Shown piece after piece: positions 39,458 to 45,985 of a stretch of 64,000 bases of DNA. This DNA comes from Apostichopus japonicus (lineage: Eukaryota > Echinodermata > Holothuroidea > Aspidochirotida > Stichopodidae): contig NC_092562.1 in NCBI RefSeq assembly GCF_037975245.1, positions 5,689,501 to 5,753,500 of the forward strand, read 5' to 3'. The notes under the pieces were generated by a model. The model made no database searches. It was given only the letters and a program-made list of their open reading frames with translations, and was not told the DNA's origin. The position numbers were made by a program, and so were the translations under genes. Position 1 is the first letter of the stretch. Each line of letters begins with the position of its first letter.

Positions 39458-40331
39458 CTGTGAAAAAAAAAGAAAAGAAAGAAATCCATAGTATGGTAGT
39501 AGCACTGTCGTAATATTCTACGCTGGTTCGTCCGACTGGAAATTAGCCTTCTTCTTGTTTACCAATAAACTGAGGGTGTCAAAGATTCATGTGATATGAA
39601 ACTTTTACATCACTTGGAAAGGGGCTCTACACCCCTTCCTAGATGTTATTACACTCAAGCTATGCAATTCATCAGTGCCTGATTCGCCTTACCGTCAATA
39701 CTTTGCAGTATTCTCGAATGACTTGTCAGGCATAAACAAGAAAAGCTAGAAGTCTCCTGTGTTTCCCGTGGATCTTTTTGCCGTCGAAATGAGTAGTATA
39801 ACCAAATACTCTCAGCTACATACCGGACAGTAGCGGTTTATTACTAGATGGAATTTTCTAACTCCCCTTGGAGGAACACAGAAAAGCTGTTACTTTGTTA
39901 CGTCAAATATGTTTGATCTTTAATGTGTTAAAGGACCATTTACATTAACTCAATAGCCTCTGAACAGTGTAAGCTATTGTATTGCATTATATAGAGACTA
40001 CACATGACAATTAAACCCGGAGCGGAAAGTTACTTTGAACCCCCTCATATCTCGAAAATTCCAACCTTTAATACCGAAATTCTACTTGTTTTCTGGAAAT
40101 TTCATGCTGAAATTTCCACAACTCATCCCAAAATTGTTACTGTTTCCTCTCAAAATGCCGTTTATTTTCTAAAGATTCCCACCTTTTTGGTTACGATGCC
40201 GAAGGCTCAGTATCTCTTGGCAATCGTGCGTGTGGGCGCGTGCGTGTAATTGTGTGCTTATGTGACGGCCCGCTTGTAAACACGGTATCTCAAGAAAGCA
40301 CAAGATGAGTCATTGTCATGCGTGATAGGTA
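39458..40331. other. 5' flank of the collagen/EF-hand gene
   Basis: Contains the acceptor-side polypyrimidine tract (39458-39485 on the minus strand), so at least one more 5' exon must exist, but I cannot place it. Otherwise no feature is seen up to the foldback element. Confidence 0.5.
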
Positions 40332-41798
40332 TAGTCCGGGAGCCCAGAAGGTTTATTCAGCTGAAGAGGTACAAAAGGTTTGGTGGCCTGATTGTGTTGG
40401 TAGGTGACCAAGCATCAATAAAATGTGTTGCTGCCGGGGCACACCCTGCATGGTAGGTGAGGGGGTCACAAAATAGGGGGGCAAAATATGCTTTTATTTA
40501 GCTGAAGAGGTACAAGCACAAAAGTTGCTGGATCTTATTCCCAGGAGGGTACCTTGAATCATGGTGGCAATGACAGCAATATCTGACTGCATGGGGCCCC
40601 AGACAGTAGCCCAAAAGAGGCCCGCCCATATGGTATTATTCAGCTGAAAAGGTACAAGGGTGAATTCTTTTGCATTTGAACTGTTACACATTGTGGTGTA
40701 CTAAAACACTAATGACAGTAACTTTGTCCTGCATAGGGGCCCAAACAGTAGCCCTAAGAACGGGCCATGCGGTACAACCAGCTGTTGGCTAATTTATCTA
40801 GCTGAAAAGGTACACGAACAAAACTTGTTGGATACTGCTCCCAGCAAGACTAATTTCATTGCTGTAGCAACAACAGCAATATCTGACTGCATGGGGCCCC
40901 AGACAGTAGCCCAAATGGGGCCCGCCCATGTGGTATTATTCAGCTGAAAAGGTACAAGGGTGAATTCTTTTGCATTTGAACTATTACATATTGGGGTGTA
41001 CTAAAACACTAATGACAGTAAATTTGTCATGCATAGGGGCCCAAACAGTAGCCCTAAGAATGGGCCATGCGGTACAACCAGCTGTTGGCTAATTTATCTA
41101 GCTGAAAAGGTACATGAACAAAACTTGTTGGATACTGCTCCCAGCAAGACTAATTTCATTGCTGTAGCAGCAACAGCAATATCTGCCTGCATGGGGCCCC
41201 AGACAGTTGCCCAAAAGAGGCCCGCCCATATGGTATTATTCAGCTGCAAAGGTACAAGGGTGAATTCTTCTGCATTTGAACTATTACACATTGTGGTGTA
41301 CTAAAACACTAATGACAGTAACTTTGTCCTGCATAGGGGCCCAAACAGTAGCCCTAAGAATGGGCCATGCGGTACATCCAGCTGTTGGCTAATTTATCTA
41401 GCTGAAAAGGTACATGAACAAAACTTGTTGGATACTGCTCCCAGCGAGACTAATTACATTGCTGTAGCAACAACAGCAATATATGACTGCATGGGGCCCC
41501 AGACAGTTGCCCAAAAGAGGCCCGCCCATATGGTATTATTCAGCTGGACAGGTACAAGGGTAGATCCTTTTGCATTTAAACTATTGCACATTGGGGTATA
41601 CTAAAATACTAATGACAGTTACTTTTCCTGCATATATGCCCTCACAGTAACCCTAGATAAGATAGGCCCTGCAGCCCAACCAGCTTTTAACTAATATCCC
41701 TACCTGAATAGGTACATAAACAAAACGTGTTGGATACCGCTTCGAACAGGACTAAATCTATTGCTGCAGTATTGACAGCATATCTGCCTGCATGGGGC
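40332..41798 (+). repeat. Left inverted arm of the foldback element
   Basis: Outer unique part then four direct 300-bp units; the innermost unit is the most diverged (CTAATATCCCTACCTGAATA). Small open frames inside are repeat translations and occur in mirrored form in the other arm. Confidence 0.85.
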
Positions 41799-41847
41799 AA
41801 GACGGCGGATAACAATTAAATCATCAAATCATGGTCTTGTCCCCAAA

Positions 41848-42636
41848 ATGCCAGCCTCATCGATGATCACTCTGGACTTCGGTTCAGGAAACAAGAGACG
41901 ATTCATAAACGTAACCAACATTTCACGTGAGCTTGAAAGAAAGCAAACAGGTTTGAGTGAAGCTCTCATTAGTTTTCATGCTCTGACTGGTTGTGACTAC
42001 AACTCTGCGTTCTACCAGAAAGGCAAGTCTGTACCCTTCAGTTATCTAGAGAAACACCCTGATTACGTTGAGGCACTGAAGTCCCTATGCACCAATGCTG
42101 TCGATAAACCTGCAGTGACTGCATTTGTTTGCAGGATCTATGGATTCAAGGCATTGGACGACATCAATGAAGCCAGGCACCAGTCTTTCACCAGGATGAC
42201 TAAAAGAAAACAGCAAGCGGTACACGTAAAGAAGATCAATTGCTCATCTTTACCACCATGTGAGAAGGTACTGTATCAACACGTATTACGGGCAAACTTC
42301 GTTGCTACGATGTGGAGCCATGCACATACCAAACAACAAACCAAAGACCTGCACCCACTGAATTATGGATGGATCGCCAATGATGATGGACTGTATGTGC
42401 ACCATTGGTATGAAGGAGAAGCTCTACCCGATACATTGTCCAGTGAAGACTCGGAGCCAGTACATGAGCGTGAAGAAATGACTCTGGCTTTGGATGCTGT
42501 CGTTGATCCAAGAGATAACTATGCAGAAAATATGAGAAAATACGATATGGACGTAGCAGATGTTGATGATGACAGTGAGTTGGATGATCAGCCATGGAGT
42601 GATGACAGTGAGAGTGAATGTGAGGATGAGGATTAG
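41848..42636 (+). CDS. XPG/FEN-like nuclease fragment, transposon-borne ORF
   Basis: A 262-codon frame in the loop of the foldback element. FGSGNKRRFINV then SFHALTGCDYNSAFYQKGKS at residues 42-61 resembles the L-x-G-C-D-Y...G-x-G-K core of XPG/FEN1-type nucleases, where the Asp binds metal and the following turn is a helix-hairpin-helix. Proteins with HALTGCD-type cores are common repetitive genes in invertebrates. The middle region has conserved-looking YGFKALDDINEARHQSF and a LNYGWIANDDGLYVHHW segment; the last 40 residues are highly acidic (DDDSELDDQPWSDDSESECE). An in-frame TAA about 36 bases upstream of the ATG rules out a longer unspliced protein, and the N-terminal nuclease lobe expected for the family is absent, so this is a truncated copy or a 3' exon. 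Activity on its own is unlikely. Confidence 0.62.
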   Translation: MPASSMITLDFGSGNKRRFINVTNISRELERKQTGLSEALISFHALTGCDYNSAFYQKGKSVPFSYLEKHPDYVEALKSLCTNAVDKPAVTAFVCRIYGFKALDDINEARHQSFTRMTKRKQQAVHVKKINCSSLPPCEKVLYQHVLRANFVATMWSHAHTKQQTKDLHPLNYGWIANDDGLYVHHWYEGEALPDTLSSEDSEPVHEREEMTLALDAVVDPRDNYAENMRKYDMDVADVDDDSELDDQPWSDDSESECEDED

Positions 42637-43126
42637 GTATGACCCTTGATGAGAACGCAAACAATTACTTGTGCCATTTCTATGTCGTAAATAATCATTA
42701 TATTGTGACATACATCAACACAATAGAACGGGCAGAAAGGTAATATTCTCTATTGACAGGAACTTACGGATTTCATAGTTATTATGTAATAAAACCCATC
42801 TGTTTGCAGTGGTTAAAACAAACTTCCACCACACCCTGGAGCAACATTTCATCTGCTTGACATGTACAAAACCTGTTACCCAGAACCTATGAGGCTGTTG
42901 AAGATTGATGTAGTTTTGATATTTGGCCTTTTCTTGGTTGACCCTAACATGTAACATTAGTGTATTACTCGCTAAATCAAGTGCTGTATTTTCTATGTAC
43001 TGCTGTGACAATGGACAATAATAATGTCAGCAGCTTACATTTCAGAAAATTCCACTGACTTACAGTACTTTTTACTTGTCTGTACATTCCTAACTTTTGT
43101 ACCTAGCTATGGGAATCTAGTAACAC

Positions 43127-43920
43127 CAAGGGCGGCGGAAGCACTTTTAATCTGGGGGGGGGGGGGCACCAACGTCGAAGGGCACTTTGCAGAAATTCGA
43201 TTGGACTGATGCAGCCTGATATTTAGTACCCTTCATAACTCTTATTGTATTATCTTATTTGCGTATACACATCACTCCATCAACGCCAACCCCCCCCCCC
43301 CCCCCTCAAGGAAACAATGCATACTAGCACTGCAGTATCTAATGTGCAAATTGGGAAAGAAGGAAAACGACAAAATGAGGTGAAATCATTATAAATTCCA
43401 AGTCCCTGCACACGCGATCGATAAATGCATGAAAGCAAATGAAATATGTGAAAATACTGAAAGAAAAGTAATTTTCTATGTGTTTTTCAATGGTTAAACT
43501 GATAGTATTATGATCATTATTATTGTAACGACTATTTGAATAATTATAACCAATTTGGAAGGGTTATAACACGGCAAATGATTGTATGTTATTGGCATGC
43601 GATGAAATAACTAATGCATGCCTATATGATATGCACATTAAGATGTTGAACGCGCGCGTAGCGCGCGAAAAATTTTGGCAATATTTTTCGGGCAAGTTGT
43701 TACAGCTCCCCCTCCCCCCCCCCCCCCAAATCAAATTGGGCTCCTACGCCTGTGGTAGTAAACATTTAAAACTTCCCGAAATATTTCATTCGACGTGGGT
43801 TTCGCTTTGTAAACTCTTGTTTTATTTAGAAATTTTTATGTAGAAAAAGGGCACATTTTTAATCTGAGGAAAAGTGGGGGGGCACGTGCCCCCTGTGCCC
43901 CCCCGGTTCCGCCGCCCTTG
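43127..43920. mobile_element. 794-bp hAT-like element nested in the foldback loop, perfect target duplication
   Basis: Ends CAAGGGCGGCGGAAGC and GGTTCCGCCGCCCTTG. The flanks are identical AGTAACAC at 43119-43126 and 43921-43928. C and G runs near both ends. No transposase frame. Confidence 0.88.
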
Positions 43921-44516
43921 AGTAACACTCTTTCGTTATAATTCTGTGTGCTAAACTTTATGTTATCAATGTTGCCTAAGATATACAAAATGGTGTCCAA
44001 TTGACTGTTAACGGTACATTACCCTAGTGTATATGTATTATGGATGTTACTATATGTTATCATTTTAACCAAAACTGTAAATATGTTATTTCAGCAAGTG
44101 ATGATGTTAACATGCCTTCATATGATTATCACTGATAAATCATTACGATCAATGATTGAGCAATTTGAATCAAAGTATATCAGTTCAATGCTACAACGAT
44201 GGAGACCAACTTTGAGTTAATTAGGGCCAGTACAATGTTTTAGGTCATTCTGAAAGATACAATTCTGGCTACACAAAGTATTTTAAATTACATTTAAAAA
44301 AAGTGCACCTATCATAGCGTTCAGGTATGGTGGTATTCACAGTTTTGAATTGCCTCGCAATCCAATTATAAGGTACGTTACACTGGATTTCTAACGAAGA
44401 AGACAAATAACGTTGTTAACCAGGTCCAATAAATCATAAATCTCTTGCAATTATATCATTTCTGTTTTCTCTCACTGCTCGTCCAATCGTGGCAAGAGAC
44501 AATAAACATGAAAGGA

Positions 44517-45982
44517 GGGGCTATGTTGGGCTATATTGTCTGGGCCCCAGTGCAGAACGAAGTTGGTGTCATTGGTAGATCTACTTAGGTAAACCTAAAT
44601 GTATCAGCATCAATGCTGAAAGATTCACCCTTGTACTACTTTGACAGAATAACACCATACGGGCCTGTTTGGGCCACTATGAAGGACAAAGTTACTGTCA
44701 TTAGCATTATAGTATACCCCGATGTGTAATAGTTCAAATGCAAAAGGATCTACCCTTGTACCTTTTCAGCTGAATAATACCATGTGGGCTGGGCCCTTTT
44801 GGGCCACTGTCTGGGGCCCCATGCAGGCAGATATTGCTGTTGTTGCTACAGCAATGTAATTAGTCTTGCTGGGAGCAGTATCCAACAAGTTTTGTTCATG
44901 TACCTGTCCAGCTAGATAAATTAGCCAACAGCTGGTTGTACCGCATGGCCCATACTTAGGGTTACTGTTTAAGCCCCTATGCAGGACAAAGTTACTGTCA
45001 TTAGTGTTTTAGTATACCCCAATGTGTAATAGTTCAAATGCAAAAGGATCTACCCTTGTACCTTTTCAGCTGAATAATACCACATGGGCGGGCCTCTTTT
45101 GGGCCACTGTCTGGGGCCCCGTGCAGTCAGATATTGCTGTTGTTGCTACAGCAATGTAATTAGTCTCGCTGGGAGCAGTATCCAACAAGTTTTGTTCATG
45201 TACCTTTTCAGCTATAGATAAATTAACCAACAGCTGGTTGTACCGCATGGCCCATTCTTAGGGCTACTGTTTGGGCCCCTATGCAGGACAAAGTTACTGT
45301 CATTAGTGTTTTAGTATACCTCAATGTTTAATAGTTCAAATGCAAAAGGATCTACCCTTGTACCCTTTCAGCTGAATAATACCACATGGGCGGGCCCCAT
45401 TTGGGCTACTGTCTGGGGCCCCATGCAGGCAGATATTGCTGTTGTTGCTACAACAATGAAATTAGTCTTGCTGGGAGCAGTATCCAACAAGTTTTGTTCA
45501 TGTACCTTTCAGCTAGATAAATTAGCCAACAGCTGGTTGTACCGCATGGCCCATTCTTAGGGCTACTGTTTGGGCCTTTATGCAGGACAAAGTTACTGTC
45601 ATTAGTGTTTTAGTATACCTCAATGTTTAATAGTTCAAATGCAAAAGGATCTTCCCTTGTACCCTTTCAGCTGAATAATACCACATGGGCGGGCCTCTTT
45701 TGGGCTACTGTCTGGGGCCCCATGCAGTCAGATATTGCTGTCATTGCCACCATGATGCAAGGTACCCTCCTGGGAATAAGATCCAGCAACTTTTGTGCTT
45801 GTACCTCTTCAGCTAAATAAAAGCATATTTTGCCCCCCTATTTTGTGACCCCCTCACCTACCATGCAGGGTGTGCCCCGGCAGCAACACATTTTATTGAT
45901 GCTTGGTCACCTACCAACACAATCAGGCCACCAAACCTTTTGTACCTCTTCAGCTGAATAAACCTTCTGGGCTCCCGGACTA
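44517..45982 (-). repeat. Right inverted arm of the foldback element
   Basis: Reverse complement of the left arm with the same four ~300-bp units (marker CAGCTGAATAATACCA at about 44767, 45067, 45369 and 45669) and the same outer sequence. Single-base differences between arms show independent ageing after insertion or imperfect correction. Confidence 0.87.
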
Positions 45983-45985
45983 GTA

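Follow-up and report, generated by a model that had tools for sequence, protein, structure and literature searches.

The nuclease of Academ-type DNA transposons is of the XPG type. AcademX elements encode a nuclease and generate target duplications of 3 or 4 bp (PMC10045372). Foldback, in turn, denotes an architecture and not a superfamily, namely long inverted repeats composed of tandem subrepeats in variable number. Such a structure has been reported for Mutator-like and P-type transposons (PMC4079207, PMC3688188). In Galileo, a member of the P superfamily in Drosophila, footprinting and gel shift showed that the long terminal repeats hold additional sites bound by the transposase (PMC3688188), and Tetris of Drosophila virilis, which probably belongs to the Mutator superfamily, is a foldback element with tandem arm units of ~220 bp and an outer flanking domain (PMC4079207). 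Here we describe a foldback element of the holothurian Apostichopus japonicus, located in a stretch of 64,000 nucleotides of contig NC_092562.1 (positions 5,689,501 to 5,753,500, forward strand; hereafter the window), whose loop holds an open reading frame (ORF) with relatives among XPG/FEN-type nucleases. In our judgment, this element is very probably a non-autonomous, internally deleted cut-and-paste DNA transposon of Academ type, belonging to the nuclease-bearing lineage AcademX.

The right end of the element is the reverse complement of its TAGTCCGGGAGCCC start, and the two arms, of ~1.47 kb on the left and ~1.38 kb on the right, contain four 300-bp units each (Table 1). They are complementary at 97% over the outermost 476 bp and match at ~94% overall. 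The ORF comprises 286 codons from stop to stop, beginning at 41776, and 262 codons from the first Met (41848-42636), and contains LTGCDYNSAFYQKGK. A sequence-only reading of the window, made without database searches, had already recognized the foldback element with a possible GTA duplication and the 262-codon frame; the boundaries, the exact GTA on both sides, the inverted arms of four 300-bp units and the frame are all confirmed, and its arm length of 1.47 kb holds for the left arm and is too long for the right one.

Relatives of the element were sought in the whole genome of 671.6 Mb in 35 contigs, where matches inside stretches of N would escape. One of these contigs, C35 (16.1 kb), bears a COI gene whose translation is best when AAA stands for Asn, as in the mitochondrial code of echinoderms, which makes an echinoderm host very probable. 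The terminal 20-mer TAGTCC[A/G]GGAGCCCAGAAGG occurs 63 times, against 0 for the reversed control, and an extended arm motif 241 times, against 1 in the control, which places the window element far beyond chance. These 63 termini pair into 29 complete elements of 3.96-6.77 kb, with five single ends besides; 20 of the 29 were read at sequence level, and the arms of the sister copies measure 0.75-1.55 kb. In prokaryote contigs, as expected, the exact ends were not found. Exact 3-bp target duplications flank all but one of the 20 complete copies read (19/20), at 12 different triplets. Furthermore, for four copies the flanks, when joined, match paralogous sequence that has no insertion and in which the triplet is present once. 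The repeated GTA is therefore the target duplication of a cut-and-paste transposon. Both the 3-bp duplication length and the checks that the sequence-only reading had proposed for it, a genome-wide search for the ends and an inspection of empty sites, thus came out in its favor.

The identity of the ORF becomes apparent from other proteins of the same genome. It matches the C-terminal part of long proteins at ~35% identity, with E values down to 2e-18, several of which have intact frames of 1551-1572 amino acids. Against Pfam and PDB sequences the ORF gave nothing significant, apart from an archaeal FEN hint (E 0.4) at the right motif, and no cellular FEN/XPG gene was matched in similarity searches with it. 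The long proteins are those of transposons, not of host genes. One family of 8.99 kb (L055, L056 and L058) begins with TAGTCAGTGGGCC and encodes a frame of 1551 amino acids, intact in at least two of these three copies; its copies are 99.7-99.97% identical, five of six carry 3-bp duplications, and its ends are related to those of the window family (TAGTC...). The L055 copy sits in a 245-bp satellite array (L055 3-1822), the unit of which shows the unduplicated target ATG. These three copies were probably active recently. The transposase-like proteins of L051-L060 end in a cysteine motif of the Tesmin/LIN54-type CXC kind, possibly a DNA-binding tail. Pfam yields no more than a sub-threshold DUF6589 and a CXC signal. 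In a second family, three copies (L051, L052 and L053) are 99.95% identical, with an intact transposase-like frame of 1572 amino acids and the left end TAGACTATGGGGC.

In alignment, the C-terminal domain of the relatives presents its acidic positions in FEN order (D in WIxDGM, D in VTDRY...SIK..ER, HEEAD, SPDTDV, TGCD), and all seven metal-binding positions are present. The structure predicted for this domain of the L055 family (predicted local distance difference test, pLDDT, 75; predicted template modelling score, pTM, 0.75) matches human EXO1 best (Z 15.5, 3.5 Å, 265 residues), followed by FEN1 and XPG, and the domain is thus predicted to fold as an XPG/FEN/EXO1 nuclease. The window ORF sets in at roughly the strand that follows SPDTDV. 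Of the seven metal ligands it retains the Asp of TGCD alone, along with the H3TH region, and the CXC tail is missing as well. With one of seven acidic residues left, it is predicted to be unable to cut DNA and, judged by the mechanism of FEN nucleases, would not work as a metal-dependent nuclease. The description of the frame as XPG/FEN-like therefore holds for its family membership, established through the relatives, and not for its catalytic residues. The proposal that the element had kept a nuclease core has to be given up, as only the C-terminal H3TH part is left, in neutral decay.

AcademX elements are recognized by duplications of 3 or 4 bp, which agrees with the 3-bp duplications and empty sites of the window family, and by an XPG-type nuclease in the transposase, which the full-length homologues possess and of which the window copy retains the C-terminal part only. 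The relation to Academ-type transposons suggested by the sequence-only reading is upheld on these two grounds. A full transposase with its catalytic core is lacking in the window copy, in the sister copy L040 (see below) and in all copies read, for which reason the element is classed among non-autonomous derivatives. Several points weigh against our interpretation as a whole. The Academ type was assigned by 3-bp duplications and the XPG-type nuclease, not by grouping with reference Academ transposases. An autonomous copy, sought with the upstream ORF of L040 and by pairing of exact termini, was not found among the 20 of 29 copies read, which does not prove its absence, and among the exact-end elements genome-wide none is long enough for a full transposase. 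In addition, none of the other transposase families read contains the 21-bp arm motif. Finally, the structure predicted for the window ORF by itself had low confidence (pLDDT 47), so that no fold is claimed for it; the comparison with FEN1 and XPG that had been proposed as a check was made with the entire domain of the relatives and was successful there.

As an internally deleted Academ-type element, the family would have depended on an autonomous copy, now lost or absent from the assembly, to provide the transposase in trans. This transposase would have bound the motif arrays on both arms and cut at the TAGTC ends, with insertion at a 3-bp staggered cut, and the ORF would be a leftover of the internal deletion and no working gene. 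An alternative source of mobility, namely that an intact Academ-type transposase of the genome (e.g., of the L055 or L051 families) mobilizes the family at present by acting on foreign ends, appears unlikely to us. The TAGTC terminus and the 3-bp duplications are held in common, such families have probably been active recently, judging by their near-identical intact copies, and no autonomous copy of the family's own was found, but the ends differ beyond TAGTC and the L055/L051-type families are among those without the arm motif.

The copies fall into two subfamilies, which bear on how the ORF came to lie between these arms. Group 1 consists of ten elements with TAGTCCGGG ends (the window copy and L031-L039), all of which carry the ORF, and group 2 includes nine complete TAGTCCAGG elements (L041-L049), none of which does; the loop is shared in part. 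At the place of the ORF, group-2 elements have ~1 kb of common non-coding sequence (e.g., L043 1374-2355), in which no similarity to transposases is detectable. Copies without the frame had been named in the sequence-only reading as grounds for rejecting it; they do exist, and they indicate non-autonomy, not an error. A further TAGTCCAGG element, L040, combines the same arms with the ORF region and an extra coding stretch upstream, so that more of this nuclease is present in one contiguous stretch, yet the copy is itself truncated and frameshifted. The longer relative anticipated earlier was thus found insofar as L040 reaches further into the nuclease, short of an intact gene. The nearest relative of its coding stretch lies at G000 C12:1413047-1414624 (39-45% identity), apparently in a separate family.

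It is quite improbable that an unrelated foldback element captured a host XPG/FEN-like exon, as the sequence-only reading had also considered, or part of the gene of another transposon. Foldback loops are often variable in content, as in Tetris (PMC4079207), and the different loop segment of group 2 would suit such a capture. Against it, the longer nuclease stretch of L040 between the same arms argues for internal deletion of an Academ-type element, one relative family with a transposase agrees in its TAGTC end and duplication length, and the nearest matches are transposon proteins, with no cellular FEN/XPG gene among them.

Variants in the ORF of the ten group-1 copies number 5 synonymous, 29 nonsynonymous and 2 stops, where neutrality predicts 21% synonymous (binomial p 0.53), and six of the ten have frameshifting gaps. 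Four copies (that of the window, L031, L033 and L034) have an open frame; given the neutral counts and the frameshifts, that of the window copy is open by recency, not by selection. Between group 1 and L040 the ratio of nonsynonymous to synonymous rates (dN/dS) is ~0.45 (Fisher p 0.07), weak evidence of selection on the ORF before the deletion derivative arose. We give hardly any credence to a functional truncated protein, such as a DNA-binding repressor that competes through H3TH as KP does for the P element: the four open frames, the retention of precisely the H3TH part and the ratio below 1 are in its favor, whereas the variant counts fit no selection and more than half of the copies are frameshifted. 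As a gene, the window ORF is of no interest in itself.

The arms themselves are highly ordered. In the 20 elements they hold 320 copies of TTATTCAGCTGAAAAGGTACA, with none in shuffled sequence, at positions 22, 163, 305, 463, 605, 763, 905 and onward from each end, so that the spacing alternates between 142 and 158 bp, and the motif never changes its orientation with respect to the element end. An arm contains 4-15 copies of the 21-bp motif, a number that differs among copies and between the two arms of one copy, a pattern expected when tandem arrays undergo unequal recombination or slippage. Homogenization of the arms within group-1 elements was tested for and not seen; units of opposite arms differ by 4.5% in the same element and by 3.7% between elements. 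Most likely, each arm is an array of sites that the cognate transposase binds, as was shown for the Galileo repeats (PMC3688188).

The nested insertion in the loop (Table 1) is flanked by an 8-bp duplication, AGTAACAC, at 43119-43126 and 43921-43928 and is not found in the sister copies L031 and L032. A 94% identical copy of it lies inside the group-2 element locus L050 (2119-2864).

Table 1. Features of the window element and related loci (window positions unless a genome location is given).
Feature	Position	Strand	Remarks
Whole transposon copy	40332..45982 (5651 bp)	.	ends TAGTCCGGGAGCCC...GGGCTCCCGGACTA
Left target-site duplication	40329..40331	.	GTA, exact
Right target-site duplication	45983..45985	.	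GTA, exact
Left arm	40332..41798	+	terminal part unique; tandem array of 300-bp units at 40573-41798; nine TTATTCAGCTGAAAAGGTACA-like motifs
Right arm	44600..45982	-	left arm inverted; four units; eight motif copies detected
Transposase remnant ORF	41776..42636	+	C-terminal H3TH part of XPG/FEN-type nuclease; predicted catalytically dead
3' non-coding part of parental gene region	42637..43126	+	in part common to copies without ORF
Nested younger insertion (794 bp)	43127..43920	.	ends CAAGGGCGGCGGAA; hAT-like, non-autonomous
Remaining loop	43921..44599	+	common to group-1 and group-2 copies
Paralogous empty site of sister copy L033	23927..24158	-	95% identity to joined flanks over 236 bases; single ACA target
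Academ-type copies L055 (1822-9001), L056, L058	G000 C8:36035322-36044312, C20:11916618-11925603, C16:14789472-14798457		three copies at different sites

We tentatively propose, with somewhat less than even confidence, that the foldback architecture arose independently in the nuclease-bearing Academ lineage and that the ordered 142/158-bp arrays assemble a multi-site transposase complex, convergent with Galileo. A literature search pairing foldback with Academ found no paper; Repbase lay outside that search. If true, such an origin would provide a test of how such arms serve a transposase equipped with a flap-type nuclease of its own, and an Academ foldback with many repeated sites per arm would support long repetitive arms as a convergent solution to end recognition, not a family trait. 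With its near-identical intact Academ-type copies, this genome also lends itself to testing what the XPG-type nuclease does in Academ transposition.

In comparison with host FEN1, XPG and EXO1, the full-length relatives share the fold and the order of the acidic residues, but they are transposon proteins with a CXC tail, and the window ORF has lost most of the metal ligands. With Tetris, the family has in common that an autonomous copy was not found there either (PMC4079207), but Tetris makes duplications of 8-10 bp, against 3 here, and has no coding remnant. Galileo and Foldback belong to another transposase superfamily; the window family has the remnant of a nuclease-bearing transposase, and no P-type (THAP) coding remnant was seen in it. 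AcademX is matched by the 3-bp target duplications and by the nuclease of XPG/FEN type that the relatives' transposase contains, whereas the window family differs in its long arms of 300-bp units and in having no transposase; in L055, the family with a transposase for which the ends were read, the terminal repeats are short and imperfect, and such arms are missing.
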